Positions 1,756 to 21,031 of a stretch of DNA of 32,882 bases are shown here, in pieces. Every line of letters begins with the position of its first letter. Position 1 is the stretch's first letter. The notes below the pieces were generated by a model. It did not search any database and was not told the DNA's origin. It saw only the letters and a list, made by a program, of their open reading frames with translations. The translations under genes and the position numbers were made by a program. Source of the DNA: an uncultured Bacteroidales bacterium (lineage in GTDB: Bacteria > Bacteroidota > Bacteroidia > Bacteroidales > FEN-979); assembly GCA_903925275.1 (NCBI GenBank), contig CAIYES010000239.1:1-32882 (forward strand). Reading direction: 5' to 3'.

Positions 1756-4638
1756 ATGAAAAAAGCAATCAAAATCTTCGGGGGCATTCTGTTTGCTCTT
1801 TTATTAATCCTTATCATAGCCCCTTTTTTCTTCCAGGACAGAATCAAGCAGGAGGTGAAAAACCTGGCCAACAGGAAACTGAAAAGCGAGGTGAATTTCA
1901 CCAACATGAATGTCTCATTTTTCAGCCATTTTCCAAACCTCACGCTCACCCTCACCGACTTTTCCCTGAAATCCTCCGCTCCATTCGAAAAGGATACCCT
2001 CATCAGTGCGCATGAGATATCCTTCGGCGTAAATGTTAAAAGCCTTTTTGGAAAAACCATGCAAATCACACGCATTTATTTTGAAAAGGCAAAGGTCAAC
2101 ATCCTTTACAATGAGCGCGGAGTTGCCAATTACAACGTGTATGAATCGGCAGAAGCGACTGATTCAACATCAAAACAAGATACAGCCTCCTCCTCCGGGG
2201 CTGAACTGAACATTGATCATATCATTTTTAAAGATTGTCAGGTAGTCTATGCCGATCCTGCAATTCCGGTCAGGGTGGTAGCCAATGGGCTCAACTATGC
2301 TGGCTTCAGTAAAATGACAAACGACTTCTTTGACCTGACTTCCGAAGTTAAAATTGACGCGCTGGATGTGTTCTATAATCAAATAAAATATCTTGATTCC
2401 AAACCGGTCACTGCCAAACTTTCTACAAAAGTCAACAACAAAGACTTGTCTGTCAATCTTGAAAAAAATGATCTTAAGATTAAAGATATCCCCCTGCAAT
2501 TCAATGGGAAATTCTTTTTTGAGAAGGATGGGTACCAGTTAAACATCAACCTTTTATCGGTTTTGGAAAAGGAATTTCTCAGTGCCAGGTTCAAGATCAG
2601 GCAAACAACCGTACCCTGGATTTCTGCGAGGGTCAATGCCAGTCTTGACCTTGGAAAATGGTCAAAAGCGCTTGATATGAACTCCATTGAGGTGAGGGGG
2701 TTATATGAACTTAACCTGACCGCGGAAGGAAGCTATTTTTCAGGACCTGATCCAAAAAGTTTCAGGAAAGATTCAGTTCTCCTGTGCATTCCAAAATTCG
2801 ACCTGATGACAAAACTTACAGGCGGATATATGAAATTCAACTCCCTGCCACAGGCCCTCACCAATATGAACCTTAGCCTGAATGCTTCATGTCCCGACAA
2901 CAATTATAAAAACATCAATATCCATCTGAAAAATATGCAGGTCAGCTTTCTGAAAAACCAGATCAAAGGTTACCTGGATATCAACAGCATGAATAATATC
3001 CCCATAGAGGCTGATCTCAATGGGAGTTGCAACCTTGCCGAGCTGAAGCAGGTTATTCCGATGGACAGCATTGATGTTGCCGGAATACTTGATTTTGACG
3101 TGAAAGTAAAGGGAAATTATAATCCTGCGAAAAAGTTATTTCCGCTAACCACCGCCACCATCAATTTCAGGGATGGTATGGTCAAAACAACATATTATCC
3201 GCATCCAATTGAAAAGATTGAACTTCATACTACAGTCACCAGCAAAACCGGGACACTTCAGGATGTTCATATTGCTGTAAACCCGCTCACCTTCCTGTTT
3301 GAAGGAAAGACCTTTACCCTGAATTCAACGATGAACAACCTTGATGATTTGAATTATGACCTGCAGGCGAATGGGGTAATCGACCTTGGAAAAATCTACA
3401 AAGTTTTTTCGCAAAAAGGAATGACGTTGGATGGCTACATTGAATCCGACCTTTCATTGAAAGGCAGGCAGAGTGATGCAACCGCAGGTCGCTATGAACG
3501 CCTGAAAAACAGAGGAACCCTGTCATTGCGCGACATATCCTTCTCCTCCGAATTGTTTCCAAAACCGTTTATTGTTCATTCCGGGAATTTTCGGTTTGAT
3601 CAGGATAAAATATGGTTTGATAATTTTAAGGCCATTTACGGAACCTCAGATTTTAATCTCAAAGGTGCGTTGAGCAATATGCTGAACTATGCCTTATCAA
3701 AAGGAGGAACGCTGAATGGCAACTTTGAGCTGAATTCTGATTTGCTCGATGTTGACGAATTCATGGCTTTTGCACCGGAAACACCATCTGCTGCACCATC
3801 TGCTGAAACAGGTGTGGTCATCATTCCCGCTGATCTCGATATAGAGTTCAGGGCAATGATTAAAACCATAAAATTCGATGGATTGACCATCAAGGATTTA
3901 AAGGGTGAGCTGGATCTGAAAAAGGGAATCCTGGTTTTAAAGGAAACAGGTTTCAAACTGATTGATTGCAGCGTGTTGATGGAGTCGACCTATGGCAGCA
4001 TCACCCCTCAGAAAGCCTTTTTTGATTTCCACCTCAAGGCGGAGGATTTTGACATAAAACGGGGATACAAGGAAATTGCCCTGATCCGTGAACTTGCATC
4101 CTCGGCAGAAAAAGCAGAAGGAACCGTTTCGATGGACTATTCGCTCAAAGGCCGGCTTAACGGAGAGATGTATCCAATAATGCCTTCCCTGGAGGGCGGC
4201 GGGACTGTTTCCGTGAAAAAGATAAAATTTTACGGTCTGAAACTTTTCAACGACATCAGCAAAGGCACTGAAAAAGAGGGATTGAACAATCCCGATATGT
4301 CGAAGGTCGACATAAAGTCGACCATCAAAAACAACACCATCACCCTCGAACAGTTCAAGTTCAAGGTGAAGGGTATCCGTGTGAGGATATCAGGTACCAC
4401 TACCTTCGACAGCCGGCTGAATATGAAGGTCAGGCTTGGTCTTGGTCCCCTGGGAATTATCGGCATTCCCATGAAAATCACAGGCCCCATGGAAAACCTG
4501 AAGATCAAATACGGCCGCGGGAAGGATTCGGATGACATGAAGGAAGCGGATTATACCGATGAACTGCCGAAGGAGATGCTCGACCGGATCAAGAGCGTTA
4601 AAGATGAGGATGATAAAGACACTGAACAGCCTAAATAA
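1756..4638 (+). CDS. AsmA-family envelope protein
   Basis: A 960-aa protein with one N-terminal membrane anchor (residues 4-27, IFGGILFALLLILIIAPFFF) and an otherwise periplasmic, beta-rich body. The segment after the anchor (NMNVSFFSHFPNLTLTLTDF, then a block ending VKSLFGKTMQITRIYFEKAKV) matches the AsmA N-terminal pattern. The C-terminal third (GGGTVSVKKIKFYGLKLFNDI, then LGPLGIIGIPMKITGPMENLKIKYG) matches the AsmA C-terminal domain. Members of this superfamily (AsmA, TamB, YhdP) form long hydrophobic grooves and are thought to carry phospholipids between inner and outer membrane; applying that role here is inference. The acidic, Lys-rich tail after residue 925 is probably disordered. ATG 1756 gives a good anchor. 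The stop codon directly abuts the stop of the convergent dus gene, with no bases between them. Confidence 0.88.
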   Translation: MKKAIKIFGGILFALLLILIIAPFFFQDRIKQEVKNLANRKLKSEVNFTNMNVSFFSHFPNLTLTLTDFSLKSSAPFEKDTLISAHEISFGVNVKSLFGKTMQITRIYFEKAKVNILYNERGVANYNVYESAEATDSTSKQDTASSSGAELNIDHIIFKDCQVVYADPAIPVRVVANGLNYAGFSKMTNDFFDLTSEVKIDALDVFYNQIKYLDSKPVTAKLSTKVNNKDLSVNLEKNDLKIKDIPLQFNGKFFFEKDGYQLNINLLSVLEKEFLSARFKIRQTTVPWISARVNASLDLGKWSKALDMNSIEVRGLYELNLTAEGSYFSGPDPKSFRKDSVLLCIPKFDLMTKLTGGYMKFNSLPQALTNMNLSLNASCPDNNYKNINIHLKNMQVSFLKNQIKGYLDINSMNNIPIEADLNGSCNLAELKQVIPMDSIDVAGILDFDVKVKGNYNPAKKLFPLTTATINFRDGMVKTTYYPHPIEKIELHTTVTSKTGTLQDVHIAVNPLTFLFEGKTFTLNSTMNNLDDLNYDLQANGVIDLGKIYKVFSQKGMTLDGYIESDLSLKGRQSDATAGRYERLKNRGTLSLRDISFSSELFPKPFIVHSGNFRFDQDKIWFDNFKAIYGTSDFNLKGALSNMLNYALSKGGTLNGNFELNSDLLDVDEFMAFAPETPSAAPSAETGVVIIPADLDIEFRAMIKTIKFDGLTIKDLKGELDLKKGILVLKETGFKLIDCSVLMESTYGSITPQKAFFDFHLKAEDFDIKRGYKEIALIRELASSAEKAEGTVSMDYSLKGRLNGEMYPIMPSLEGGGTVSVKKIKFYGLKLFNDISKGTEKEGLNNPDMSKVDIKSTIKNNTITLEQFKFKVKGIRVRISGTTTFDSRLNMKVRLGLGPLGIIGIPMKITGPMENLKIKYGRGKDSDDMKEADYTDELPKEMLDRIKSVKDEDDKDTEQPK

Positions 4639-5631
4639 TCATTCCTGCATTTCTGTATTTCCAACAGGCCCGATCGCTGCCAGAATTTCGAAAAGCTCCT
4701 CTGTGGTTGCGGCAGTGACCATCTTCATCCGCCATAACCTGAAGTTCGGTATCCCCCGGAAATAGCCGCTGTATAGCTTGCGTATCTCGAACAGGGTGGC
4801 ACGTTCGCCTTTGTACGGGATAGAAGTTAAAAGGTGGTGACGAACCACGGCAATCCGTTCGCTGACCGGAGGAGGAGGCGGTACCGTGTGGGTTGACAAC
4901 CATGCCTTGATTTCTCGGAATATCCATGGGTTCCCGGTGGCAGCGCGGCCTATCAGGATGCCGTCGACACCAAAGCGGTTTTTCATCTCCTCTGCCTTCG
5001 GTCCCGAATCAACATCGCCATTTCCGAAAACAGGAATTTTCATACGGGGGTTGTTTTTCGCTTCACCGATCAGCGTCCAATCGGCTTCGCCACCATAAAG
5101 CTGGGCGCGGGTACGTCCATGGATGGCGATGGCGCTGATGCCCGTATCCTGCAAACGTTCGGCAATGTCAACAATATCTTTATGTGCATCATCCCAGCCA
5201 AGCCGGGTTTTCACGGTTACCGGCAGCCGGGTCGATTTCACCACAGCTTCGGTCATACGGATCATCTTGGGGATATCCTGAAGCAGCGCGGCGCCACCGC
5301 CTTTCATCACGATCTTGCGCACCGGGCATCCGAAATTAAGGTCGATGAAATCGGGATTTGCCGATTCTGCAACGGCTGCAGCCTTCATCATCGAGTCAAC
5401 ATTTTCGCCAAATATCTGGATACCGATGGGACGTTCGCCCGGCTCAAACCGCATCTTGTTACTGCTTTTCACCGCATCGCGGATCAACCCTTCGGCCGCG
5501 ATGAATTCGGTAACCAGTACATCGGCGCCATAGTGTTTGCAAATGCCCCGAAACGGAGAATCAGTAACGTCTTCCATGGGGGCAAGAAAGAGCGGAAAGT
5601 CGCCCAGCTCAATATTTCCGATCTTTGACAA
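4639..5631 (-). CDS. dusB: tRNA-dihydrouridine synthase (DusB family)
   Basis: An FMN-dependent enzyme that reduces uridine to dihydrouridine in the D-loop of tRNAs, in the cytoplasm. Family motifs appear in order: LAPMEDVTDSPFR (FMN site), DLNFGCP with catalytic Cys102, VKTRLGWDD, AIHGRTRAQLYGGEADW, PVFGNGDV and DGILIGRAATGNPWIF. The ORF track starts at GTG 5679, but I prefer TTG 5631, which gives (M)SKIGNIELGDF and 330 aa, the usual DusB length. A TAnnTTTG -7 box lies at 5657-5650, so the upstream codons would not be transcribed. An unusual PPPPP run (near residue 256) precedes the C-terminal helical domain. The specific tRNA position modified cannot be told from the sequence. Confidence 0.93.
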   Translation of the reverse strand: MSKIGNIELGDFPLFLAPMEDVTDSPFRGICKHYGADVLVTEFIAAEGLIRDAVKSSNKMRFEPGERPIGIQIFGENVDSMMKAAAVAESANPDFIDLNFGCPVRKIVMKGGGAALLQDIPKMIRMTEAVVKSTRLPVTVKTRLGWDDAHKDIVDIAERLQDTGISAIAIHGRTRAQLYGGEADWTLIGEAKNNPRMKIPVFGNGDVDSGPKAEEMKNRFGVDGILIGRAATGNPWIFREIKAWLSTHTVPPPPPVSERIAVVRHHLLTSIPYKGERATLFEIRKLYSGYFRGIPNFRLWRMKMVTAATTEELFEILAAIGPVGNTEMQE

Positions 5632-5649
5632 ATTGTGGTAATTTAGCGG

Positions 5650-5682
5650 CAAAAATAGCCATAATCCGTGTACCAGCACAAA
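5650..5682 (-). promoter_or_regulatory. Bacteroidetes-type promoter for dusB
   Basis: On the minus strand TTTG (5682-5679) is followed after 21 bases by TATTTTTG (5657-5650), an exact match to the Bacteroidetes TAnnTTTG -7 box. The expected transcript start near 5643 leaves only a short leader before TTG 5631. The GTG start of the divergent CPBP gene sits between the two boxes. Confidence 0.6.
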
Positions 5683-6627
5683 CCACCCATCCTTGACAGC
5701 CTGACCCCATTCACACGGCTTCTTTTTTCAGTATTGCTGATCATCACCTGTTTTGCCATTACATTTTTTTTGGGTTTGCTGCTCGCCGGCCCCCTGTTTG
5801 GTGTGAAGGTAAGCAATATGCTTTCCCTGATAAATGATTACCAGGATGTCAAAACAATCAGGTTGCTGCAATATTTTCAGATACTGCAATCTTTCGGTCT
5901 CTTTATCTTTCCTACACTCCTGGCAGGTTATTTTTTCGAACGAAGCAGCATGCGGTACCTGCATCTCGACAAGTCGTCGCGATGGCTGATCTACCTTATC
6001 ACTTTTGCCCTTATGTTTGCGGCCTTGCCACTCATCAACTGGATGGTAAGTGTAAACGAAATGATGAAACTGCCTGATTTTCTGAAGGGAATGGAGGATT
6101 GGATGAAATCTGCGGAGGATGAAGCGGCTAAACTTACCGAAGTCTTCATGAAAATGCCTGTTTTCGGTGCATTTCTCTTCAATCTGCTGATGATCGCCTT
6201 GCTGCCGTCCATCGGCGAAGAGTTACTGTTTCGTGGCCTGCTGCAACGCCTGATGCAAGAGTGGCTGAAGAACATTCATGTTGCAATTTTTATTTCGGCA
6301 TTTTTCTTTTCAGCCATGCACATGCAATTTTACGGTTTTCTGCCGAGGATGTTCCTGGGAGTCCTGTTCGGATACCTGTTTTATTGGAGCGGTTCGCTCT
6401 GGGTGCCGGTATGTGCCCATTTCATCAACAATGGCGCAGCAGTCAGCGTGGCTTATTTTAGCCAGCGCGGTGCGCTTAGCGGGGACTATGAAAACTTCGG
6501 GGCCACCGACAATATATTCCTGATCCTGCTAAGCATCATGGCTACCGGGGTTTGTTTATGGCTTATTTACAAGTTGAAACCGGGAAACAGTGTGGCCGTA
6601 TTGCAAAGCGATGATATCCCGAAATGA
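5668..6627 (+). CDS. CPBP-family intramembrane glutamic endopeptidase
   Basis: A 319-aa polytopic inner-membrane protein of the CPBP (Abi/CAAX-processing) family. The three family motifs are present: EExxxR as EELLFR (Glu184, Glu185, Arg189), FxxxH as FSAMH (Phe214, His218) and HxxxN as HFINN (His251, Asn255). The known relative Rce1 is a glutamate protease; bacterial members act in immunity to bacteriocins, protein maturation or unknown roles, and the substrate here is unknown. The start is GTG 5668, because an in-frame stop lies two codons upstream and no ATG occurs before the first membrane helix. The start overlaps the divergent dusB promoter, so its own promoter must lie in or beside dusB. 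The Omp85 gene follows 23 bases downstream and is probably co-transcribed. Confidence 0.88.
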   Translation: MYQHKPPILDSLTPFTRLLFSVLLIITCFAITFFLGLLLAGPLFGVKVSNMLSLINDYQDVKTIRLLQYFQILQSFGLFIFPTLLAGYFFERSSMRYLHLDKSSRWLIYLITFALMFAALPLINWMVSVNEMMKLPDFLKGMEDWMKSAEDEAAKLTEVFMKMPVFGAFLFNLLMIALLPSIGEELLFRGLLQRLMQEWLKNIHVAIFISAFFFSAMHMQFYGFLPRMFLGVLFGYLFYWSGSLWVPVCAHFINNGAAVSVAYFSQRGALSGDYENFGATDNIFLILLSIMATGVCLWLIYKLKPGNSVAVLQSDDIPK

Positions 6628-6650: not shown

Positions 6651-8012
6651 ATGTTTATGAAACATTTTTACCCGTTGCTTCAACTGATCATTGTTTTATC
6701 CTTTTTTGGCTCAGTCGTTTTAGCGCAAGCCGATTCATCGGCATTTCCGCTGAAGGAGAAGATAAAAAAAGGCTGGACTTGGGCCGCATTGCCGGTAGTA
6801 GCCTATGATGCCGACATGGGCGTACAACTCGGCGCACTAGGGCAAATTTTTGATTATGGCGATGGTTCCACCTATCCGGAATATAAGCATACTGTTTATG
6901 CTGAATGTTCATGGTTTACCAAGGGCAGTGCGGTGTACGAAGTATTTTATGATTCTAAATACCTGATCCCCGGCGGGATACGTGTTACAGTTGACGTGGA
7001 TTACCTTCCGGAGCGGGCACTTGATTTTTATGGATTCAATGGGGCTGAAGCCAATTATTCAGCATCACTTACCCAGCAAGGCTCCGATGATTATCTTTCA
7101 CGTGTTTTTTATAAACTGGAGCGGAAGATGTACAGGGTCATGGCTGATTTCCAGGGACCAATCGCCGGGCAAAAGCTGCGGTGGATGGCAGGAATCAACA
7201 TCCTCGGGATTAAAACAGGTACGGTCGACATCGACCGCATCAACAAAGGGAAGAAAGAGGAAAACAAACTGCCTGATACCGCCTTGCTTTATGATCATTA
7301 TGTGGATTACGGACTGATTCGTCCGCAGGAAAAAAACGGTGGTACCACCATCTACCTTAAAACCGGGCTGATATATGATACCCGTGACAATGAAGCTGCG
7401 CCAAATAAGGGGATATGGTCGGAAATCCTGGTGCTGAGCGCCCCAACATTTCTGGGAAATAATCCGTATGCTTTCGTCAAGCTTGCCATTACGCACAGGC
7501 AGTATATTTCATTGGTGAAGAAAAGTCTGGTAGCCGCCTACCAATTGAGTTACCAGGGTACAATCGGCGGAACCACACCCTATTATATCATGCCCTACAT
7601 TTACAGCTCTTACAGCCTGACTACAAAACCCGATGGACTGGGAGGTGCAAAGACCCTCCGCGGGGTGCTTCGTAACCGCATAACGGGCGATGGCGTTGCA
7701 TTCGGCAATATAGAACTCCGGTGGAAGTTCTTCCGGTCGGTGGTATTGAAACAAAACCTGTATCTCGGGCTGACAGCCTTCCTGGATGGTGGAATGGTCG
7801 TGCAGGATCATAAAATATACACCAATACCGTTCCGGACGATCAGAAAGCATTTTATTTCAATCTACCCAACGACCGACTGCACCTGGCCGCCGGACTTGG
7901 ACTCCGCATTGCAATCAACGATAACTTTATCATTTCGGCCGACTGGGGAATGGCCATGAACAAACAGGATGGCACAAGCGGAGTATATCTTGGCATCGGG
8001 AATATCTTTTAG
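6651..8012 (+). CDS. Omp85/BamA-TamA-type outer-membrane beta-barrel protein
   Basis: A 453-aa protein with a signal peptide (about residues 1-25, ending VVLAQA) followed by a beta-barrel that fills most of the sequence. The conserved barrel phrases are typical of the bacterial surface antigen (D15) family: LIYDTRDNEAAPNKGIWSEI, then LGGAKTLRGVLRNRITGDG (the RGF-like loop region), IELRWKFF, and a final strand ending in Phe (VYLGIGNIF). No POTRA repeats fit in the roughly 25 residues between signal peptide and barrel, so it is a POTRA-less member, as also found fused to patatins. Start is ATG 6651 or 6657. It is likely in an operon with the CPBP gene and the GT51 protein. Whether it folds other proteins or is a simple pore or enzyme partner is unknown. 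Confidence 0.85.
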   Translation: MFMKHFYPLLQLIIVLSFFGSVVLAQADSSAFPLKEKIKKGWTWAALPVVAYDADMGVQLGALGQIFDYGDGSTYPEYKHTVYAECSWFTKGSAVYEVFYDSKYLIPGGIRVTVDVDYLPERALDFYGFNGAEANYSASLTQQGSDDYLSRVFYKLERKMYRVMADFQGPIAGQKLRWMAGINILGIKTGTVDIDRINKGKKEENKLPDTALLYDHYVDYGLIRPQEKNGGTTIYLKTGLIYDTRDNEAAPNKGIWSEILVLSAPTFLGNNPYAFVKLAITHRQYISLVKKSLVAAYQLSYQGTIGGTTPYYIMPYIYSSYSLTTKPDGLGGAKTLRGVLRNRITGDGVAFGNIELRWKFFRSVVLKQNLYLGLTAFLDGGMVVQDHKIYTNTVPDDQKAFYFNLPNDRLHLAAGLGLRIAINDNFIISADWGMAMNKQDGTSGVYLGIGNIF

Positions 8013-8047: not shown

Positions 8048-10021
8048 TTGCTGCCTTCCATTAAAAAATTGTTGAATATTTCCGGCAAGCCACGGCAGAT
8101 CATATACTACCTGTTGATTGGAATGGTTGGTTTTGCGTTATTGGCATTCCTGCTCCGTACCCAAATGGCTTCCTGGTATCTGCACCATCGCGTCGACCGT
8201 TTCAATAAGGAAAACCAAGCCACATTGGCAATTTCCAGGGTGAAGATCCAGGGACTCGCTTCCATCCTGCTCACCGGTGTCAGCCTCAAACCCGACAAGG
8301 GAGATACTCTGTTGAAGGTCGATTCGGCCTATGCTTCTATCGGCATCCTGAAGCTATTTGCCGGTCGTATCGTATTGCATAATGTGAGGTTGATCAACAC
8401 CACGGTTCTGCTCGAAAGCCATGACAGTGTTTCAAATTTCAGGTTTCTGCTGCATGGTCATCAGGACAGGGCAGATACTGTTACCCGACAAGTCAGTAAT
8501 GCTGCAGCCATTGACCGGTTGTCGGGCTTCATCTTTGATAAGATCCCCCTTTCGCTCGACATCCGGAATTTTAACCTGATCAATGTTGATGAAGGGCACC
8601 GCCTTAAGGTCCACATCAGTCAATTCACGCTGACTGACCATTATTTCAGATCAACAGCAGAGATTAACGAAGACAGCATTGCTGCTAAATGGATAATGGC
8701 AGGTAAAATGGATAACAACAACCGGGTAGCGGAATTCCGCCTTTATTCGGCAGACACTGCGAAAGTGGCCATCCCGTTTATTGGTTATAAATGGCATACG
8801 ATGGTGGACTTTGATACGCTTGCATTCAGCATTGCCATGCATGAAGGCACCATAGACCTGTCTCAGATCAGTGGTTTTGCCTCGGTGAGCGGACTACGGG
8901 TCGATCACCGAAAAATTGCCTCAGGTGCCATAACATTCGAAAAATTATCGATCAATTATCAGATTAACATCGGTAAGGATTTTGCTGAGCTTGACAGTGT
9001 AACCCGGATTACCTTCAACAGAATCGATATTCACCCCTACCTGAATTACCGTGTAGGACCAGGGAAGCAGATCACATTACGGATAAATAAACCACAATTT
9101 CCGGCACAGGATCTCTTCTCCTCATTCCCGCAAGGGCTTTTTACAAATCTTGACGGAATCCGTGTTAAAGGCAACCTGTCGTGGCATCTCGATTTCTTTG
9201 TTGATCTGGCAAACCCTGATTCATTGCGTTTTGAGACCTCACTCGACCGGCACCAATTTAGCGTATTATCTTATGGAAATGCCGATTTTACCAAAATAAA
9301 CGAACCTTTTCCCTATACGGCTTACGACCACGACCTGCCGGTGCAAACCTTTATGGTTGGACCGGAGAATCCCAATTTCCGCACCCTTGATCATATATCA
9401 CCTTATCTTCAGTATGCCGTGCTTACCTCCGAAGATGGGGGCTTTTATCAGCACCGGGGTTTTCTTCCCGATGCATTCCGCGAATCGATCATCACCAACA
9501 TAAAGGATCACCGGTTTTCCCGCGGGGGAAGTACCATCAGCATGCAATTGGTGAAAAATGTATTTCTCAGCCGGAATAAAACCATCGCCCGCAAATTAGA
9601 GGAGGCGCTGATCGTATGGCTCATTGAAAACCAGGGTCTGAGTACCAAAGAACGGATGTATGAAGTGTATCTCAACGTCATCGAATGGGGGCCGATGATC
9701 TATGGTGCCAATGAAGCCGCACGTTTTTATTTCAGCAAAGATGCCGCTAAACTCACCCTGGCCGAAGCTATTTTTATGGCATCCATCATCCCCCGCCCCA
9801 AATGGTTTAAATACTCTTTCGATGAGAATGGACATCTTCGTGAATCGAATGCAGGATTCTACCGTTTGGTATCGGAAAAAATGTTGAACAAAGGTTGGAT
9901 CACGGCTTCGGATGCCGAAAAACTGATTCCCGATGTCGAATTAAAAGGCCCCGCCAGGCTGCAACTGAAACAACCTGATTCGATACCTGCTGATTCCCTT
10001 GATTTTCAGATCCCGGAATAA
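8048..10021 (+). CDS. Peptidoglycan glycosyltransferase (GT51) with AsmA-like periplasmic region
   Basis: A 657-aa inner-membrane protein. A single helix spans about residues 18-36. Residues 55-125 (ISRVKIQGLASILLTGVSL to HNVRLINTTVLL) closely resemble the AsmA N-terminal pattern, and beta-rich sequence continues to about 430. Residues 445-625 are a GT51 domain that polymerises lipid II into glycan strands: SEDGGFYQHRG with catalytic Glu462, GGSTISMQLVKNVFL, RKLEEAL with the second acidic site near Glu519, KERMYEVYLNVIEWG, and AEAIFMASIIPRP. No transpeptidase domain follows, so it is a monofunctional glycosyltransferase. The start appears to be TTG 8048; the next in-frame ATG lies within the membrane helix. 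It follows the Omp85 gene by 35 bases and is probably in the same operon. The AsmA comparison is by eye. Confidence 0.85.
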   Translation: MLPSIKKLLNISGKPRQIIYYLLIGMVGFALLAFLLRTQMASWYLHHRVDRFNKENQATLAISRVKIQGLASILLTGVSLKPDKGDTLLKVDSAYASIGILKLFAGRIVLHNVRLINTTVLLESHDSVSNFRFLLHGHQDRADTVTRQVSNAAAIDRLSGFIFDKIPLSLDIRNFNLINVDEGHRLKVHISQFTLTDHYFRSTAEINEDSIAAKWIMAGKMDNNNRVAEFRLYSADTAKVAIPFIGYKWHTMVDFDTLAFSIAMHEGTIDLSQISGFASVSGLRVDHRKIASGAITFEKLSINYQINIGKDFAELDSVTRITFNRIDIHPYLNYRVGPGKQITLRINKPQFPAQDLFSSFPQGLFTNLDGIRVKGNLSWHLDFFVDLANPDSLRFETSLDRHQFSVLSYGNADFTKINEPFPYTAYDHDLPVQTFMVGPENPNFRTLDHISPYLQYAVLTSEDGGFYQHRGFLPDAFRESIITNIKDHRFSRGGSTISMQLVKNVFLSRNKTIARKLEEALIVWLIENQGLSTKERMYEVYLNVIEWGPMIYGANEAARFYFSKDAAKLTLAEAIFMASIIPRPKWFKYSFDENGHLRESNAGFYRLVSEKMLNKGWITASDAEKLIPDVELKGPARLQLKQPDSIPADSLDFQIPE

Positions 10022-11652: not shown

Positions 11653-13461
11653 ATGAAAGATGGTGTGATATTTCTCTTTGTCATACTACTGAAAATCAGT
11701 ACTGTAAATGGCCAGGTTTCCATCAGTTCCACCAACGATGCTGCTGATCCTTCAGCAATGCTCGAGGTAAAATCAACCGTTAAGGGTTTTCTGGTTCCCC
11801 GTATGACGGCGGCTGAGCGGGATGCCATAGCCAGCCCTGCCACCGGGCTGCTGATCTTTTGTACCGACAACCAGCAATTTTACAGTAACCAGGGCACATC
11901 CATCGAAAAAAACTGGGTTATGGTGAACAGTCAATGGATTTCCACCGGATCCGACATTTATTTCAACACCGGAAATGTGGGAATCGGAACTTATTCGCCA
12001 GGGGCCAGGCTGCATGTTGCAGGAAACGCTATCGTTAATGGTACTGCGGAAGTAATCGGAAAACTTTCAACAACACCTTCTTCATTTTCAGGCTCAGGAT
12101 TTCTCCTGCCACATGGATCTGCCCCTTCGGCACCGGTTAACGGCGATTTATGGACTACGTCCAGTGGTCTTTATGCGCGGATCAGTGGAATGACAATTGG
12201 TCCTTTTGGCACAGGCAACGGCAACGGTACTGTTACCAATGTTTCTGCCACATCGCCATTGATAAGTTCAGGGGGAACAACGCCCGATATCTCAATTCCG
12301 AAAGCCTCCTTGCTTTCAAACGGATATCTCAGTGCGGCTGATTGGAATACTTTTTCCAACAAGGTCAATACGGTTTCAGCAACTTCTCCTTTATCCAGTT
12401 CAGGCGGGACATCCCCGAATATAACCATTTCCCAGGCATCTAACATCAATAGTGGCTATCTGACCTCTTCCGACTGGATTACATTCAATGGGAAAGAGAG
12501 TGTTTTAACATTTTCCTCCCCATTGTCGAGAGTTGGCAATACAATTTATTTACCGGCTGCATCTGCTTCACTCAACGGATACCTTTCCAGTTCGGATTAT
12601 TCCAGACTTCATGGAACAGCCGGCAGTGTTTTATTTTTCGATGGAAGCGGAATACAGCAAAACGCGGCTTCCTTTTTCTGGAATAACAGCAATAACCGCT
12701 TTGGGATTTTGACTAATAGCCCGGCGGCATCATTTTGTGTCGGATCGGGCTCCGAGTTTCAGGTTGCATCCAATGGGAGTTGCTCGGCAACGGTCAATTC
12801 AACCGGCGCTGCATTCGCCGCCACAAATTCCAGTGCTTCAGGAACAGGGATTATATCGTTTGGACAAGGTACTTCGGCATTTGATCAATCAACACCTTCC
12901 GGAGGGGCTTTTAAAGGGACTACGTTTGGGGTTTATGGTGAAGCTGTTTATTATGCGACCGGAGGACGTTTTGGCGGATATTTCTACACCAGAAAAAGCC
13001 CCACCGAAAGTTCCTATGCTTATGTTGGCGGTTATATCGGCGGAATTGCAAAAACTATTTACGGAGTTGGTTATACAAGTTTAATGGTTCCATCCCCGGA
13101 AGGAGGGAATGTTGATATGTTTGGCCAGGTAGCCCCTGAAATTTTGGTGAATGATTATGGTACAGGCACACTGGTCAAAGGCTTTTGCCATATTGTGATT
13201 GATCCCGTGTTCTCAAATAATATTATTTCCACCAAGGATCACCCGATAAAAATTTTCATTCAGCTGGAAGGTGACTGCAATGGCGTATATGTTACAAATA
13301 AATCCGTTTTTGGTTTCGATGTAATTGAACTGAAGGGGGGCGTCTCCGATGTAAGTTTTTCATGGTCCATTACGGCGAATCGCAAGGATGTCATTAACAA
13401 AGATGGTTCAATATCATCAAAACATATCGGGGTTCGTTTCCCCAAATCCGTTATTGATTGA
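11653..13461 (+). CDS. Secreted tail-fibre-like repeat protein
   Basis: A 602-aa exported protein with a signal peptide (residues 1-20, ending TVNGQ). Residues 22-125 form a head common in Bacteroidetes surface proteins (AMLEVKSTVKGFLVPRMTAAER, then GNVGIGTYSPGARLHVAG). A module of about 40 residues, VSATSPL.SSGGT.P.I.I.(A/S)S...GYL...DW.TF..K, occurs at 198-237 and 241-281 and in degenerate form at 285-321; it resembles phage tail-fibre repeats. The C-terminal region (HIVIDPVFSNNI, then IFIQLEGDCNGVYVTNKS and SFSWSITANRK) looks like a terminal domain shared by such proteins. Such repeats usually form trimeric fibres in phages; a surface fibre here is inference. It is the first gene of the operon, and the next gene starts 21 bases on. 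No T9SS sorting domain is seen. Confidence 0.8.
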   Translation: MKDGVIFLFVILLKISTVNGQVSISSTNDAADPSAMLEVKSTVKGFLVPRMTAAERDAIASPATGLLIFCTDNQQFYSNQGTSIEKNWVMVNSQWISTGSDIYFNTGNVGIGTYSPGARLHVAGNAIVNGTAEVIGKLSTTPSSFSGSGFLLPHGSAPSAPVNGDLWTTSSGLYARISGMTIGPFGTGNGNGTVTNVSATSPLISSGGTTPDISIPKASLLSNGYLSAADWNTFSNKVNTVSATSPLSSSGGTSPNITISQASNINSGYLTSSDWITFNGKESVLTFSSPLSRVGNTIYLPAASASLNGYLSSSDYSRLHGTAGSVLFFDGSGIQQNAASFFWNNSNNRFGILTNSPAASFCVGSGSEFQVASNGSCSATVNSTGAAFAATNSSASGTGIISFGQGTSAFDQSTPSGGAFKGTTFGVYGEAVYYATGGRFGGYFYTRKSPTESSYAYVGGYIGGIAKTIYGVGYTSLMVPSPEGGNVDMFGQVAPEILVNDYGTGTLVKGFCHIVIDPVFSNNIISTKDHPIKIFIQLEGDCNGVYVTNKSVFGFDVIELKGGVSDVSFSWSITANRKDVINKDGSISSKHIGVRFPKSVID

Positions 13462-13482
13462 AAACATCTGACAAGAAAACGT

Positions 13483-14832
13483 ATGAAAAACTGGTTACTT
13501 GTTTTTACAATCCTAAACATCAGTATTTCAACCATTGCAAATCCTGAGATCACAGAAGTTTATACGGTTTCTGTGGCAATTAACGACACTGTATGCAGGG
13601 ACAGCAGCGTGTGTTTTAGTGGCGTTCCTTTTAACCTGAATCTTTTATGCAGACCTGCCGGCGGGGTTTATTATGGTTCACCGGCTATTCTTGGAGATCA
13701 ATTTAACCCGATCACAGCAAATATCGGATCAAACATGGTCTACCATGGTTTTGTAACTGGGATTGATACAATCGAGTGTTGTTCATTTGTTATTTCGGTC
13801 ATTGATACGGTCTTTCCTGCAGGAATTATCAATGGATCCGGTAGTGTTTGCATAGGAGAAACTGAAACCTACAGCATTGACCCCATTGCAAATGCAAATT
13901 CCTATTCATGGAGTTTTTCCGGTTCCGCAATTGAGGATAGTATCACAAATACACCTTCAATATCTTTATTTTTCGATAATGCGTTTACCTCCGGGTCTTT
14001 AAACGTGCAGGGAATAAACGACTTGTGTGCAAATCCCGGAATGGTATCAACTAATTTTTTTATCAACATAAATGCACGCCCGGCGGCTACAATAAGAAAT
14101 GTTAACGATACCATCACTATAACAGATAATCTTTGTAAAAAAGCCCGTATTCATTATTATGTAGTTGAACCGTTTAAGCGTTACAAATGGGCGGTTCAAA
14201 ACGGTAAAATTTTAACAATTGACACTTCGCGCAATGTTACCATCGATTGGGATACCGTAGCAGGCAGTAGTTCTTTGACAGTTACCGTGGAAAATGAATC
14301 AGGATGTTCGGGGTCCTCTGTACGGCAGGTGAACATTATGAACGGAACTGCGCCCGACCCCTCAGTTATCTGGCTGTTTGGTTACAACATGCTTGTATGC
14401 AGCGATTCTTTGATAAATTCGTACCAATGGTATAATGATAATGCATTGATACAATATGCCACCAATCGTTATTTTCTGGCCGATACGAACAATAGAAACT
14501 GTTATTATGTGCAAACCTGCATTGATGCCTGCTGCAACATGTCCGACCCTTATTGCTTTTTCAACCCCTCTGCCATCGACGATTTAACCCGTCGTACAAT
14601 CCGGATTTTTCCGAACCCTGCGGGTGAAAAAATTCAAATCAGGATAGACTTAGCCAACGGTCATAATGGTCGTGTTAGTATTTTCAACCAATTTGGCGCA
14701 ATGGTAAAAGAGATGTATGTCGCCTCCGGCGATTTTCAAATTGATTTGTCATTGCTACCTCGCGGGTTGTACTATATCAGATACCTCAATGAATTGGATG
14801 GGGTGTTTATATCGAAGATCATTAAAATCTAA
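13483..14832 (+). CDS. Cys-rich T9SS cargo protein with PKD-like domain
   Basis: A 449-aa protein with a signal peptide (about residues 1-20). A C-terminal type A sorting domain spans the last 77 residues or so: IRIFPNPAGEKIQI, VSIFNQFGAMVKEM and LPRGLYYIRY. The middle has Ig/PKD-like beta segments (GSGSVCIGETETYSIDPIAN, SYSWSFSGSAI) used in adhesins and extracellular enzymes. It has about 15 cysteines, including a cluster CYYVQTCIDACCNMSDPYC before the sorting domain, which suggests disulfides after export. No catalytic motif is visible, so it is likely a structural or adhesive surface protein. It is second in the operon, 5 bases before the next gene, so it is probably co-produced with the barrel and TssR-like proteins. 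Confidence 0.82.
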   Translation: MKNWLLVFTILNISISTIANPEITEVYTVSVAINDTVCRDSSVCFSGVPFNLNLLCRPAGGVYYGSPAILGDQFNPITANIGSNMVYHGFVTGIDTIECCSFVISVIDTVFPAGIINGSGSVCIGETETYSIDPIANANSYSWSFSGSAIEDSITNTPSISLFFDNAFTSGSLNVQGINDLCANPGMVSTNFFININARPAATIRNVNDTITITDNLCKKARIHYYVVEPFKRYKWAVQNGKILTIDTSRNVTIDWDTVAGSSSLTVTVENESGCSGSSVRQVNIMNGTAPDPSVIWLFGYNMLVCSDSLINSYQWYNDNALIQYATNRYFLADTNNRNCYYVQTCIDACCNMSDPYCFFNPSAIDDLTRRTIRIFPNPAGEKIQIRIDLANGHNGRVSIFNQFGAMVKEMYVASGDFQIDLSLLPRGLYYIRYLNELDGVFISKIIKI

Positions 14833-14837
14833 GAAGC

Positions 14838-16223
14838 GTGAAGAAGTCCATAGTGTTTTGGTTGCCAGGATTGTTCTTTCTGGTGTTTTCAACAATTCGC
14901 CTTGGCGCACAAACTAAAGCAGACACCTTCGGGAAAATAGAGAAATTCCTTCAGGATTATCAGGATTTTTCTGCTTTGGGAAGATCCGGAAGTCCTTACA
15001 TTGATGAAGCTACCATCAGCTCGTTTAAAAACCTTTTTGAAATGGATGCGAACCTTTTCTGGGATCTTTTTAAGACCGAATCACAGCGGATCAATTACCT
15101 GCTGACTGTTGAGGAATATACAGATAGTGTTCAGCGGGTTTATGCCGGAAAGAAACCGGTTATTTCTTATGGGAAACATCATATTGCAATAAATGCGAGC
15201 GGAAAAACTGCGATTGCTTACCTGCACAAAACAAACAATGTTCCGGGTAAAAAGGATTCCAGGGATTTCAAGCTGAATAAAACAGGGTTGAACCTTCGAC
15301 TCCTTTTTAATATCCGGGAAGACACCATCTTAATTCAAAACATTACAGAAGATACACGACTTACCAGAATCAGAAACCTGAGCATTGAAGGTTGTTATAA
15401 TTTCGTAAGTAAAATTTCAGGCAGTTTCTTCGAAAATCCGGTATCTGCAATAAACCCCGAACTTACATCAGGCTATACCATTGGAAATCAAACAGGTTTT
15501 AACATTGGTGTGAATATGGATTTCCGGATAAACAGAAAAACACTTGATGGGCTTCTTATCAATGTTGGATTATTGTATTCGAGGACTGACGCTACTGTAA
15601 ATATAAATAATTATGTGAACTCATACCGTCAATCATTTGATCCTGATACAAATCCTTTCGAAATCTCTGTTTTTGACAGAACACCCGGGATCAGGGAGAA
15701 AATATCCCTCATGGGGTTTTCCATACCGGTTACGCTAAAATGGTATGTGTTGCACCGGTTTTATTTGAAAGCCGGTCCTCAGTTCAGCCTGTTTTCAGGG
15801 ACTTCGCAAGTTACCTACACTTTATCGCATACAGGAGGAGGTAAATGTCTGTTAATTAATGAAAATTCCCTTCCAGCAAATGAACAAAAGTGGTTTTACC
15901 TGGATGAGCAACATGAGATGGCTGATGCACAATATGGTTTTTTCAGAAACAGGGAATTTGCAGGATCATCAACCATCAGCCTGACCACCCTGAATGTAGC
16001 AGCAGTTTTTGCGATTGGTATTGAAGCAAGATTCAAAAAAATCGTTATCGGGATTGAGCCGTGGCTGACCCTGGGTTTAACGAATCTTACAGGAACATCA
16101 GGGGTTGAGGATTACAAATTGTACCCAGAAACAGTTTATAGCAGCTTTTTGCAAACCTTTAGATCACAAAAATTAAATACAGTCGGGCTCAAACTAATCA
16201 TAGGCAAAATGTTTACCAGGTAA
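14838..16223 (+). CDS. Outer-membrane beta-barrel protein with N-terminal helical domain
   Basis: A 461-aa protein with a signal peptide (residues 1-25, ending RLGAQ). The N-terminal region (about 28-170, FGKIEKFLQDYQDFSALGRSG, SSFKNLFEMDANLFWDLF) is helical and resembles an NTF2/SnoaL-like fold by eye. The C-terminal half (about 205-461) has alternating beta strands, such as GFSIPVTLKWYVLHRFYLKAGPQ and LNTVGLKLIIGKMF, typical of a small outer-membrane barrel. The start is GTG 14838, five bases after the upstream stop, giving MKKSIVFWLPG. Its place between a T9SS cargo gene and the TssR-like gene suggests an outer-membrane component of the operon's machinery. No specific function is known to me. 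Confidence 0.75.
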   Translation: MKKSIVFWLPGLFFLVFSTIRLGAQTKADTFGKIEKFLQDYQDFSALGRSGSPYIDEATISSFKNLFEMDANLFWDLFKTESQRINYLLTVEEYTDSVQRVYAGKKPVISYGKHHIAINASGKTAIAYLHKTNNVPGKKDSRDFKLNKTGLNLRLLFNIREDTILIQNITEDTRLTRIRNLSIEGCYNFVSKISGSFFENPVSAINPELTSGYTIGNQTGFNIGVNMDFRINRKTLDGLLINVGLLYSRTDATVNINNYVNSYRQSFDPDTNPFEISVFDRTPGIREKISLMGFSIPVTLKWYVLHRFYLKAGPQFSLFSGTSQVTYTLSHTGGGKCLLINENSLPANEQKWFYLDEQHEMADAQYGFFRNREFAGSSTISLTTLNVAAVFAIGIEARFKKIVIGIEPWLTLGLTNLTGTSGVEDYKLYPETVYSSFLQTFRSQKLNTVGLKLIIGKMFTR

Positions 16224-16233
16224 TTTAACAACT

Positions 16234-18615
16234 ATGACCGGAAGGGCATTCTTTTTAACCTTTTTGATTTGTGCCGCGATTACATATCCGGTTACTGGTC
16301 AGAAAAATGCCTTAAAGCAACCGGAATGTCTGCTGAATCCTGTAAAGGAAATCGACATTAACTTGATAATCAGTGCGCAATGCAGTCCGCAAAAAGGAAA
16401 AGCAAATCCATGGATTGTTTTTTCGAACAGGGGAGATGACTTTGGATGTAAATATTTTGTTGTTGGTGAAAACCTGACGCATTTTCATATCTGCTCGGGT
16501 ACCGGGGTGAATGGGCTGACAATATTAAACTTAAAAGATAAAGGGTTTAGACCAAAATCGGAATTTCTTTTTCATTTCTCGGCCGATTTTTCAGCTGATG
16601 CATTGATCCATCGCAAATGTGTCATATTAAATTCCCAGGGGTTGATCGATAGTATTTGCAAGGGTTTAATTGAAGAGTCGCGCATCCCGGTTTATGCTGA
16701 TCCCTATGTCAGGAATATGCAGAATTACACAGATGCCTTCGGGAATATTCTCCCGCGATTTTTACCCCTGTACTCAATTTACTTCATCTACCAGCGTGAA
16801 AATAACCGGTATCTGTTAGGAAGGGATTATAAATTTGAAACCAATCGCCCTTTCGGTGATCAGATTATCGGTTGGGTGGATGCTTACCGGGTGTTCGATT
16901 ATAACAACAGGTTATGCTTTGAACCCAATTTTGAAGCAGCAGCAGTGAGACAACGACGATGCGATACCTTATTTGGGAATGCAAAGGTTTTTGCAACCGC
17001 AAGTGAGTTGGAAGTGTTCCTGACTAATCAAAAAATTAACATTGAACCCTTCTGGGAGGAGCCAGGGACATTGTTTTTGCGTCAGCCCAAAAAATTTAAT
17101 GTTGCCGATACTTTCAACATATATTCCCTGAGAAATACCATTGCCAGAAACAACTGCGGTCCGGGGACCAAGTGTTTCATTGCCAATTTTACAAACACGG
17201 AGTTAAAAGCAGATTTTTTCAGATTTCCTTTCCTTGGCATAAACCGTGTTGATAAAAAAACTTTTCAGGTAGCAGCCACCGGAAGGTATATTAAAAGCCG
17301 TAAAAGCAACTGCGATTCATTGACCAGGGATAAATACAACCTGAAGGTGTTTTTCATACTCCCCGATTCCTTAGCCAACTTTTATCCCCTCTTTTTTTTA
17401 AATCAGCTTAACGGGAAATATGCCAATTTTAATAAAGAATATCATGCATGTTATTATCCTCAGCAAACCGATCTTTTGGTATCGTTCGGCTCAACAAACA
17501 GTGGACAGAAAAATTACGACATCATCCGGGACAGCCTGATAAATCATAAACCGAATGCTAAAAATCAAGCGAATGCCAATTGCTTTACCGTATTAAATCA
17601 GGTTCTCAGGAAGGAATCTTTCAATAACCGGGAAACAAATCTCATTGTTTTGATCAATACACGGCAAACCGGCAATACACCAAACAATTATTTAAACTCA
17701 ATTGCCAATAAGCTTGCAGAAAAAAACTGCTATCTGCTGGCATTTGATTTCGCAAATAATCAAACATTTAATTCATCGGTTGACAGTATTATCAGAAAAG
17801 CTGCCACATCCTATAAAGAGCGGTATAACTTACCGGCGTTTCCGATAGACTGGCAGCAATCGGGGAAATGTAAATTTTTGACGAATTATTTGCTGGCAGT
17901 CCTTTCCTCCATAGATACGACTGGGTTAAAAGGGCCACAAATTCTGGAATACATTCAAACATCCTATGATCCGTTAATTTCAACCGTTAACCGGATGATC
18001 ATGGCTGCGTGTACCAATAATCCTGATACCATTGTGCTGACCCCGAATGAAACCCGCTTCAAACAAGGATTGGAGAAAATAATCTCCGGTTGTTCAAGGG
18101 ATATCTCCTCGATGCGAATATTGAAAAAGGGATTTACCAGGATCAGATATGAGGATAACAGTCCCGATATATGGAAAGGGGAGGTAATTATGACAGAAAA
18201 TGAATTGCACGATCTGATCACACAGCTTGACGGGTTTCTCATCCCGCAAGCAGGCAGTACCCTTTGCGATAGAATCTGCACATTGTGGCAAACGCTGATC
18301 AGCCGGTTTATCGGACAACAATTGCTTGTCGACAATTCATACCTGGATCTGACAATCTGCCAAATAATCAACCGGATGATCGGTTCTAGTTTCGGTTACT
18401 ATTGCAATGAACCGATTAAACGATTCACGCTGAGAGATATATGTCAGGGCCAACAGAATGTTTTAGAACCCGCTTATGCCTATTTAAAGGAAATAGAAAT
18501 AAAAAACGACCTTCTGAAGCAAAAATACAACAGTGAATATTTTCACATAAGCGAAGATGCAGGCAACACAAATAGTATCAAGTATTATTGGGTTCCGGTA
18601 AGTTTATTGCCATAA
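16234..18615 (+). CDS. TssR-like envelope protein with SH3-like and vWA-like regions
   Basis: A 793-aa exported protein (signal peptide residues 1-22, ending VTGQ) with about 22 cysteines. From memory of the family it resembles TssR, the large periplasmic protein of Bacteroidetes T6SS. NPWIVFSNRGDD (59-70) parallels the TssR N-terminal phrase. RIPVYADP to RPFGDQIIGWVDAYR (150-219) looks like a bacterial SH3-type domain, with RLCFEPN after it. Residues 370-515 look like a vWA-like fold (KVFFILPDS, NLIVLINTRQTGN, CYLLAFDFANNQ), but the DxSxS metal site is degenerate. The C-terminus ends YYWVPVSLLP. No other T6SS gene is in the window. It is flanked by a barrel gene (10 bases upstream) and the ABC ATPase gene (18 bases downstream). 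The TssR assignment is tentative; a generic SH3/vWA envelope protein is the alternative. Confidence 0.5.
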   Translation: MTGRAFFLTFLICAAITYPVTGQKNALKQPECLLNPVKEIDINLIISAQCSPQKGKANPWIVFSNRGDDFGCKYFVVGENLTHFHICSGTGVNGLTILNLKDKGFRPKSEFLFHFSADFSADALIHRKCVILNSQGLIDSICKGLIEESRIPVYADPYVRNMQNYTDAFGNILPRFLPLYSIYFIYQRENNRYLLGRDYKFETNRPFGDQIIGWVDAYRVFDYNNRLCFEPNFEAAAVRQRRCDTLFGNAKVFATASELEVFLTNQKINIEPFWEEPGTLFLRQPKKFNVADTFNIYSLRNTIARNNCGPGTKCFIANFTNTELKADFFRFPFLGINRVDKKTFQVAATGRYIKSRKSNCDSLTRDKYNLKVFFILPDSLANFYPLFFLNQLNGKYANFNKEYHACYYPQQTDLLVSFGSTNSGQKNYDIIRDSLINHKPNAKNQANANCFTVLNQVLRKESFNNRETNLIVLINTRQTGNTPNNYLNSIANKLAEKNCYLLAFDFANNQTFNSSVDSIIRKAATSYKERYNLPAFPIDWQQSGKCKFLTNYLLAVLSSIDTTGLKGPQILEYIQTSYDPLISTVNRMIMAACTNNPDTIVLTPNETRFKQGLEKIISGCSRDISSMRILKKGFTRIRYEDNSPDIWKGEVIMTENELHDLITQLDGFLIPQAGSTLCDRICTLWQTLISRFIGQQLLVDNSYLDLTICQIINRMIGSSFGYYCNEPIKRFTLRDICQGQQNVLEPAYAYLKEIEIKNDLLKQKYNSEYFHISEDAGNTNSIKYYWVPVSLLP

Positions 18616-18633: not shown

Positions 18634-19443
18634 ATGAATGTATTTGTCATAGAAAATCTGAAATGTTCCTACCCGTCGAGTGGGAAACCAATATTGTTCA
18701 TTGAAAACCTGGCGATTCCGAAGGGCAAAATGACTGTAATCCTTGGAAGATCGGGTAGTGGAAAATCAACACTTGTTGAAGCCCTCGGGTTGATGAACAA
18801 TACCATAGTGGCAGGGGAGGTCAACTATTTTTCACCCGGCGGAGTTGTGGATTTGGCGCAATTGTGGAATAAACGCAAAAAGGTTTCAGCCATCCGGCGG
18901 AATTACTTTTCGTTTATCTTTCAGGATGATTATTTAATGCCTTATTATACATGTGTTGAAAACATGCTGATCCCAAGACTTATTCAGCATAAAATGGCTT
19001 CTGCCCTTACGGGAAATTTTTTGGACAAACCCCTTGAGTTTTTGAACCTTTCGGGCAACGGAATCATGAAACAATTGCCTTGTCAGCTTGCAGGAGGACA
19101 AAAACAAAGGCTTTCGTTTATCAGGGCTGTTATAAAAGATTTTGATGTGCTTTTTGGCGATGAACCTACCGGAAATCTGGATCATGCCAATTCCGGAAAT
19201 CTGTTTGATTTTATTAAAGAGATCATCTATGAAAAATTCCGGACGGCTGTTATCGTTTCGCACAATGTCGAACTCTCAGTGGAGAAGGCAGACAGGATTA
19301 TTGTATTGACCCATTGCGAAGACAATACCCAATCTCATTTCAGGCTTCATCCGGATCATATTTTTGATCGCGATATAAACAATCATTGGGAAAACTTTTC
19401 CAACCCACAGGACCTGACAGATTATATCAAATTAATATTGTAA
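18634..19443 (+). CDS. ABC transporter ATP-binding protein, MacB/LolD/FtsE type
   Basis: A 269-aa cytoplasmic ATPase. The Walker A motif is GRSGSGKST (38-46), the Q-loop Gln lies in FIFQDDYLMP (about 97), the signature is LAGGQ (152-156, Ala in place of Ser), Walker B is DVLFGDEPTGNLD (171-183), and the switch His is His210 in VIVSH. The FGDEPTGNLD phrase is typical of the type VII (MacB/LolD/FtsE) group that pairs with FtsX-like permeases. About 45 residues follow the H-loop region, a modest extension. It starts 18 bases after the TssR-like gene and precedes a matching permease. By family it would drive mechanotransmission in the periplasm rather than transport across the inner membrane; that role here is inference. 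Confidence 0.9.
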   Translation: MNVFVIENLKCSYPSSGKPILFIENLAIPKGKMTVILGRSGSGKSTLVEALGLMNNTIVAGEVNYFSPGGVVDLAQLWNKRKKVSAIRRNYFSFIFQDDYLMPYYTCVENMLIPRLIQHKMASALTGNFLDKPLEFLNLSGNGIMKQLPCQLAGGQKQRLSFIRAVIKDFDVLFGDEPTGNLDHANSGNLFDFIKEIIYEKFRTAVIVSHNVELSVEKADRIIVLTHCEDNTQSHFRLHPDHIFDRDINNHWENFSNPQDLTDYIKLIL

Positions 19444-19483
19444 AAAAAATGACAGAGAAGATTTTTCCAGTATCGGCAAATCC

Positions 19484-21031
19484 ATGAAAAAATATTTAAG
19501 GTTCTATTCTGTTGTAACAAAAAATGAGTTTAAGGCAATCCGTGGATCCGGATTTCGTTCAATTATCTATTTGTCTGGAATCTTATATCTCACTTTTTTA
19601 TGTATCGGTTTTTCAAATAATGCGCTGCTCTATCAAAATAAACTGTCGAAAAATCCCCTTTCAAATTGGATAAATATTGAAATTAACAAGCGGACTCAGG
19701 ATTCAACTGAGCGTTTAATGAATGACTTGTCCGACCCGGTATTGAAAAACAAATATTGTATAAAAAACCTCTATTTCTCGAAAGAATTCGGAACATCTTT
19801 CCTCGACCGGACCGGACTGAGTTCCGGGTTGCCTTTACCAAAAGCCCGTACAACCGACCCGAAAAGTTCCATCATACATGATCTGTTTAATCGTGACAAC
19901 GTTGTTAAGGCCGTGGTTGCAGACAATATTTTTCAAATCGAACCATTCGGGTTTGTGGTAACGGAAACATTCCTGAAGAAATTAGGATTTCATTACGATT
20001 CAGTTTCTTATTTGTCATACCGTTTATACGGAGGCAAATATGTACCGGTACCCATTTTGGGGGTCGTAAAGGAGTTGCCCGACCATGCCGATATTGTTTG
20101 CACGGATTCATTTTATATGATGCAATTGCATATTTATCCCGATGATAGTCTTTTTTCAAAACTTTTTATCGACACGCATGACCTTGAGATGGTAAAACAG
20201 TTAAAAGATGTGATCAGGAAAAAAACCGGCCTTTCAAACGGGTTACCCGTTTTTGATTCCCTGAAAGGGTATAACAATGCACTCTGTGTCCTTTATTTTT
20301 CAAACAAATTTCCGGAAATCAGCCGGTTATTTAACGATAATCTGAGTGACTTGTACAAATTGAAGGAATTTCAGCATGTTCACTTTGGAACATTTTTCGA
20401 GGCAAAAATTGAAGTAACGGCGCAGCAAGCCAAAAACTTTATGCAAAATAAACGTGACTTTAATTTCGATTACCTGGCTGTTGAGTTCAGCAAGCTTGAC
20501 AAGATTAAAGATTTTTCAGCCTATATCAAAAACAGGTACAATATATCAATGAATATGGAGACCGTAACCCAACGGCAAAACTATCTGTTCTCTTTAAATA
20601 TTTCGTTGGGGGCCATTATCCTTGTTTTGATCCTGGCAGTGCTTTCGATTGTCATTTTTATTTCAAATACCCTGAAAAATCATCTCGACAGAGTTAAACG
20701 CAACCTTGGTAATTTCCTTGCATTTGGTACCAGTGGCCATAAAATAATTGGTATATATATCATCGTAGTCATGAAAATATTGTGGGTTTCCATGACCATC
20801 GCACTTATCCTTGCATATTTTTCAGGGGAATTATTCGACAGGTATTTATTAAAAAACATGTTAATCCTCGAAGGAGATCAGGACTTTTTTTCGCTGTTTA
20901 ATATCTGGCTTGTTTTGTTTATCATCGTAGTTATTGCAGTAGCAGTTTTAAAAACACTTGTTACTGTGACGCTGCTAGTAAGGCAATCCCCCGGAGATCT
21001 GATTTATGAAAGGGAAAAACATAAATGTTAA
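19484..21031 (+). CDS. FtsX/MacB-type ABC permease
   Basis: A 515-aa inner-membrane protein with the four-helix MacB topology: one helix near residues 23-46 (FRSIIYLSGILYLTFLCIGF), a periplasmic domain of about 320 residues, then helices near 374-397, 424-446 and 474-498. The cytoplasmic loop after the second helix (LDRVKRNLGNFLAFGTSGHKI) and the tail RQSPGDLIYERE are FtsX-like. The periplasmic domain contains MacB-like phrases (VVTETFLKKLGF, VPILGVVKELPDHADIVCTD). It is larger than FtsX and shorter than E. coli MacB because the ATPase is a separate gene. It begins 40 bases after the ATPase gene and is its evident partner. The substrate is unknown; no MacA-like adaptor or TolC homologue is encoded nearby. 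Confidence 0.87.
   Translation: MKKYLRFYSVVTKNEFKAIRGSGFRSIIYLSGILYLTFLCIGFSNNALLYQNKLSKNPLSNWINIEINKRTQDSTERLMNDLSDPVLKNKYCIKNLYFSKEFGTSFLDRTGLSSGLPLPKARTTDPKSSIIHDLFNRDNVVKAVVADNIFQIEPFGFVVTETFLKKLGFHYDSVSYLSYRLYGGKYVPVPILGVVKELPDHADIVCTDSFYMMQLHIYPDDSLFSKLFIDTHDLEMVKQLKDVIRKKTGLSNGLPVFDSLKGYNNALCVLYFSNKFPEISRLFNDNLSDLYKLKEFQHVHFGTFFEAKIEVTAQQAKNFMQNKRDFNFDYLAVEFSKLDKIKDFSAYIKNRYNISMNMETVTQRQNYLFSLNISLGAIILVLILAVLSIVIFISNTLKNHLDRVKRNLGNFLAFGTSGHKIIGIYIIVVMKILWVSMTIALILAYFSGELFDRYLLKNMLILEGDQDFFSLFNIWLVLFIIVVIAVAVLKTLVTVTLLVRQSPGDLIYEREKHKC

Follow-up and report, generated by a model that had tools for sequence, protein, structure and literature searches.

Gene and Domain Layout

The window analysed here, a stretch of 32,882 nucleotides from an uncultured Bacteroidales bacterium (contig CAIYES010000239.1), contains at positions 8048..10021 of the forward strand a gene with a TTG start and an open reading frame of 657 aa without internal stop, and homologs in the relatives compared begin at about the same place. 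The encoded protein is predicted to start with a membrane anchor helix (residues 14-35, 8087..8152, +), indicated by the AF2 model and its hydrophobic sequence, followed by a second helix (residues 37-56, 8156..8215, +) that AF2 secondary structure places at the mouth of a groove and that is Chorein-N-like by analogy with PMC6791001. A beta-groove domain of about 18-20 strands (residues 58-437, ~380 residues, 8219..9358, +) is assigned to the AsmA/TamB superfamily using Pfam, TamB profile alignment, AF2 and Foldseek, and its end (residues 351-409, 9098..9274, +; FPAQDLFSSxPxGLFxN...) is the best conserved and a length-invariant part in a comparison of 70 members. The C-terminal part is a GT51 peptidoglycan glycosyltransferase domain (residues 439-640, 9362..9967, +; PF00912 at 1e-42, Foldseek match to 3nb6 at 1e-10), in which the first catalytic Glu-Asp pair (E462-D463, 9431..9436, +) and the second catalytic-motif glutamate (E539 of the ExYLN motif, 9662..9664, +) are invariant in 70/70 members. 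A Pfam scan of the 657-aa protein reported neither the transpeptidase domain PF00905 nor the TamB C-terminal domain PF04357.

The AF2 model of the full-length protein reached a pLDDT of 89.1 and a pTM of 0.80, the latter suggesting a defined arrangement of groove and GT51 relative to each other. The sequence-only reading had proposed an AsmA-type N-terminus and a complete GT51 domain in one polypeptide, and Pfam, the TamB profile alignment, AF2 and Foldseek agree on this combination. Judged from sequence comparison and structure prediction, an anchor, a lipid-transfer-type groove and a GT51 enzyme almost certainly make up one conserved Bacteroidota protein. An assembly or frameshift artefact is ruled out, as the single-frame fusion recurs in dozens of genomes.

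Gene Neighbourhood

Directly upstream of the fusion gene, at a distance of 35 bp, lies a gene for an Omp85-family outer-membrane protein of 453 aa (6651..8012, +; NF047779 above cut-off). Its only Pfam match is the Omp85 barrel domain at residues 224-453, and Pfam reported no POTRA domain in this protein. In the window's family, 18 of 30 loci have an Omp85-family gene as the same-strand upstream neighbour of the fusion, mostly within 100 bp, which makes the encoded protein a possible local partner. It was not found at fusion loci of other families, and clustering of the genes flanking 58 distant loci revealed no conserved operon partner across the phylum. Since no neighbour is conserved outside the window's family, the fusion appears, from these gene neighbourhoods, to act without an obligatory operon partner.

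Further upstream, 3.4 kb from the fusion, an AsmA-family protein of 960 aa is encoded (1756-4638, +; PF05170, 65.6 bits), and this protein is also present upstream of the fusion in several other loci of the window's family. A Dus gene (4639-5679, -) and a CPBP protease gene (5668-6627, +) are located between the two, and the block AsmA-Dus-CPBP-Omp85-fusion is retained in many close relatives. Downstream, four consecutive genes occupy about 11653-18615 (+), three of which (11653-13461, 14838-16223 and 16234-18615, +) are without Pfam match, while the remaining one (13483-14832, +) encodes a PKD_6 domain and a type IX secretion sorting tail. These are followed at 18634-21031 (+) by an ABC transporter ATPase gene and a 515-aa gene without Pfam match at E 1e-5.

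The N-Terminal Groove Domain

Single-sequence comparison gives a faint signal for the N-domain of the window's protein, with a DUF748 match at residues 22-137 that scores 19.5 bits, below the Pfam cut-off of 50. Among 70 homologous N-domains, DUF748 matches 51 (best 4.5e-11) and the AsmA profile 10 (best 1.7e-5), both at E<=0.01, and YhdP matches three. A profile built from the N-domain and searched against 396 Bacteroidota genomes retrieved, besides the fusions, residues ~10-150 of many proteins of 1,000-1,700 aa with E-values down to 1e-16. Ten of these long proteins were retrieved and five scanned; all five carry PF04357, which identifies them as TamB. Profile-profile alignment of the N-domain with the TamB set extends over residues 33-406 (E 7e-14).

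The AF2 model of the N-domain (mean pLDDT 89.6) starts with the membrane helix and the second helix, after which many antiparallel strands follow one another. Searched with Foldseek, this model has a sole PDB match below 1e-3, LPD-3 (E 7.7e-6, prob 1.00), at a TM-score of 0.26 that denotes poor global superposition and agreement of the local fold alone; the full-length model matches GT51 structures and LPD-3. The N-domain profile gave short or chance matches only when compared with PDB sequences, and no significant alternation that would indicate one hydrophobic face of the strands was seen across the whole N-domain (p 0.22). None of the homolog profiles, the TamB alignment, AF2 or Foldseek pointed to an N-terminal fold unrelated to AsmA grooves, and membership of the domain in the AsmA/TamB superfamily is thus supported by both sequence and model. 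As the N-termini of AsmA and TamB have been identified as Chorein-N lipid-transfer domains (Levine 2019, PMC6791001), the domain is referred to here as a lipid-transfer-type groove.

The Glycosyltransferase Domain and Its Origin

The GT51 domain scores far above threshold for PF00912 (Transgly; residues 439-589, 146 bits against a cut-off of 27), and its nearest solved sequence is the Aquifex aeolicus PBP1A-GT. The best NCBIfam match is TIGR02070 (MtgA) with 158.1 bits, under the equivalog cut-off of 182.65, and no NCBIfam model is passed by the fusion protein. The motifs ED..F..H, RGGST.S.Q..K, RK.EE and E.YLN are all present, and H469, R492, G493, Q500, K503 and R515 are invariant in 70/70 fusion members alongside E462, D463 and E539.

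A tree was built from 68 GT51 domains, most of them encoded in 17 genomes. It groups the fusion GT51s in one clade (100/99) and the MtgA proteins in a second (100/99), joins these two as sisters (98/94) and leaves all class A PBPs outside. From phylogeny and predicted domain content, the protein is best described as a putative monofunctional peptidoglycan glycosyltransferase that is anchored in the inner membrane and belongs to a sister clade of MtgA. Because the fusion GT51s form one clade, the fusion would most simply have arisen once and then spread in Bacteroidota by descent or transfer.

The genome of the window encodes two class A PBPs, a canonical MtgA of 231 aa and the fusion; its PBP1C-like protein carries the transpeptidase domain PF00905. 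In Bacteroidia, the fusion is an extra GT51: genomes with it have a mean of 4.2 GT51 genes and those without 2.6, a difference whose significance is indicative only, the genomes being related. MtgA and the fusion are both present in most sampled genomes, which rules out a general replacement of MtgA, and no short GT51 (MtgA) was seen in the fusion genomes G394, G043, G053, G323, G179 and G047. A divergent GT51 match of 66 bits was also observed in a 1,053-aa frame (G430:C1:1317072-1317659, +) unlike the usual PBP, MtgA and fusion types.

GT51 domains had been said to follow directly on the membrane anchor in the usual case, which is only roughly true: in E. coli PBP1B, the UB2H domain lies between anchor and GT51. 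The further expectation that ~400 intervening residues would keep the enzyme off the membrane fits less well with the composition of the membrane-contact jaw, whose mean hydropathy in the fusions (-0.53) is higher than in MtgA (-1.07) and lower than in the PBPs (0.11) of the same genomes. Given that the jaw is not depleted in hydropathy compared to MtgA, the fusion GT51 may still sit on the membrane.

Distribution and Conservation

A survey of Bacteroidota for the same architecture, as suggested by the sequence-only reading, identified the fusion in about 45 of 396 sampled genomes, a number that represents the author's count of N-domain profile matches within frames of 640-800 aa. Within the same class (Bacteroidia), 39 of 99 genomes have the fusion, and the N-domain was found in 32 of 43 genomes of the window's own family; named genomes that bear the fusion include Bacteroides, Parabacteroides, Phocaeicola and Rufibacter. 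GT51 follows the N-domain in every complete, uninterrupted homolog examined, a set outside which fall several homologs cut by contig ends and one with an early stop. In the latter (L063:5878-7536), the frame ends before GT51 at 553 aa, for which a frameshift, a sequencing error or loss of the enzyme are all possible. Fusion homologs were also encountered on one MAG contig each labelled 'Acidobacteria' (L103) and 'Candidatus Aminicenantes' (L105). As the GT51 of the 'Acidobacteria' contig nests among Bacteroidota in the GT51 tree, this case likely represents misbinning or transfer.

The spacing between the two halves is narrowly kept: in 70 diverse members, R37 at the anchor and E462 lie 412-461 residues apart (median 426, s.d. 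6.9). The segment corresponding to residues 351-409 is 59-60 residues long in all 70 members, and P361, F365 and, just after the segment, G410 are invariant in every one of them. Conservation of the N-domain by successive quarters amounts to 0.44, 0.36, 0.47 and 0.59, the last quarter comprising residues 341-437, compared to 0.73 for GT51. Invariant catalytic motifs, a kept spacing and segment length, and conservation that rises toward the enzyme are together not what one would anticipate for an inert linker.

A Groove That May Guide Lipid to the Enzyme

GT51 enzymes build the cell wall from a lipid-linked precursor, and AsmA-like proteins are the leading candidates for lipid movement across the periplasm. 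It is tentatively proposed, and could well be the case, that the groove of the fusion acts as a lipid guide between inner membrane and GT51 active site, with lipid II or its carrier as the likeliest cargo. In this scheme, a lipid tail would leave the outer leaflet of the inner membrane and enter the groove at its open end near the membrane. The best candidate is the undecaprenyl tail, belonging either to lipid II or to the growing chain, with a phospholipid as the second option. The tail would be led along the groove to its far end, where GT51 would be docked, so that polymerisation of lipid II would take place at a site held constant with respect to the membrane. Local delivery of the cargo is suggested by the length of the groove, about one quarter of TamB, and by a chain that ends in GT51 instead of a part reaching the outer membrane; bridging to the outer membrane by the groove itself is unlikely.

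Several results argue for such guidance: the homology of the N-domain to the N-termini of TamB and AsmA, with LPD-3 as the sole significant match among solved structures; the invariant motif residues, the spacing of 426±7 residues and conservation rising toward the enzyme (0.36 to 0.59); the one origin of the fusion GT51s and the presence of the groove partner in all checked complete members; and the confident full-length model, whose pTM suggests a defined arrangement of both parts. The absence of significant strand alternation, the low TM-score with LPD-3 and the retained membrane-contact jaw weaken it. The sequence-only reading had suggested a coupling of lipid handling with glycan synthesis, and such coupling would fit the single origin, the fixed spacing and the conservation gradient.

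The main rival explanation, plausible though on balance doubtful, is that the AsmA-like domain brings no lipid to the enzyme and instead determines where GT51 works, as a rigid arm or a docking surface, be it by fixing its height in the periplasm or through a complex with a partner in the envelope, for instance an Omp85 protein. The fixed length of the domain across the fusion family is in agreement with this explanation, as is the Omp85 gene next to the fusion on the same strand in the family of the window, even though that neighbour is not kept in other families. Lipid II is normally accessible to GT51s straight from the membrane, and the fusion keeps its membrane-contact jaw, so that the enzyme might take lipid II unaided and the groove might not be needed. 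On the other hand, an inert spacer need not retain a lipid-transfer fold, nor should its conservation peak beside the enzyme.

Alternatively, the groove could move or sense phospholipids, with GT51 being regulated by, or clearing a path for, the lipid supply of the outer membrane and lipid II not being a cargo of the groove. YhdP, TamB and YdbH are considered to move or sense phospholipids, and known AsmA-like proteins have been implicated in phospholipid transport (PMC12977461; PMC12045153); moreover, the N-domain is homologous to the inner-membrane end of TamB. This possibility is nevertheless improbable, as the fusion is without the C-terminal part by which TamB reaches the outer membrane and comparison of loci across the phylum gave no conserved outer-membrane partner. 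Least probable is that the fusion is an accessory glycosyltransferase of the MtgA kind, with a GT51 that works as in MtgA and an N-terminal extension of no particular function: the sister relationship to MtgA, the fusion genomes without the short enzyme and database models that name the fusion simply transglycosylase would suit it, but most sampled genomes have both proteins, which speaks against mere replacement, and the extension is conserved, predicted to be folded and fixed in length across the phylum.

Should the groove indeed guide lipid to GT51, the fusion might be a lipid-fed glycosyltransferase and its groove the first lipid-transfer groove known in bacteria to pass lipid II, or its carrier, straight to a wall polymerase, with peptidoglycan being made off the membrane plane and near the existing sacculus; this strongest form of the proposal is unlikely. 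A widespread single chain of lipid groove and GT51 would offer a direct handle on whether lipid traffic is coupled to wall synthesis in organisms that are dominant in the gut, and would suggest that AsmA grooves may serve cargo besides phospholipids. GT51 is already established as a target for antibacterials (moenomycin), to which the fusion would add a further one in Bacteroidota.

Comparison With Known Systems

Both halves of the protein are known families, and their combination as a conserved class of single origin is undescribed in the literature searched. The architecture is common and conserved in sequence collections; as to whether it is already a standard class, no description of an AsmA/TamB-like-GT51 fusion was found in a literature search whose coverage excluded most subscription journals.

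The closest GT51 clade is that of MtgA, which likewise has a single membrane anchor and GT51 only, with no transpeptidase. The fusion differs from it by having about 400 additional residues between its anchor and GT51, by its separate clade and by its score below the TIGR02070 cut-off, and many of the genomes that encode the fusion have true MtgA as well. Class A PBPs (PBP1A, PBP1B, PBP1C) share the GT51 catalytic motifs, whereas the fusion is without their transpeptidase and is split by the tree from all PBPs of the same genomes. The inner-membrane anchor and the N-terminal groove of the fusion are of the kind found in TamB (residues 33-406 aligned); however, TamB is 1,500-1,700 aa long and ends in PF04357, which meets the outer-membrane partner, while in the fusion GT51 replaces everything beyond the first ~400 residues. 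The AsmA, DUF748 and YhdP families share the superfamily fold, but the groove of the fusion is much shorter (the AsmA protein of the window has 960 aa) and is followed by a C-terminal enzyme. Finally, the eukaryotic bridge-like lipid-transfer proteins LPD-3/BLTP1, VPS13 and ATG2 possess the repeating beta-groove fold that is predicted for the fusion, which in contrast to them is short, bacterial and linked to an enzyme.
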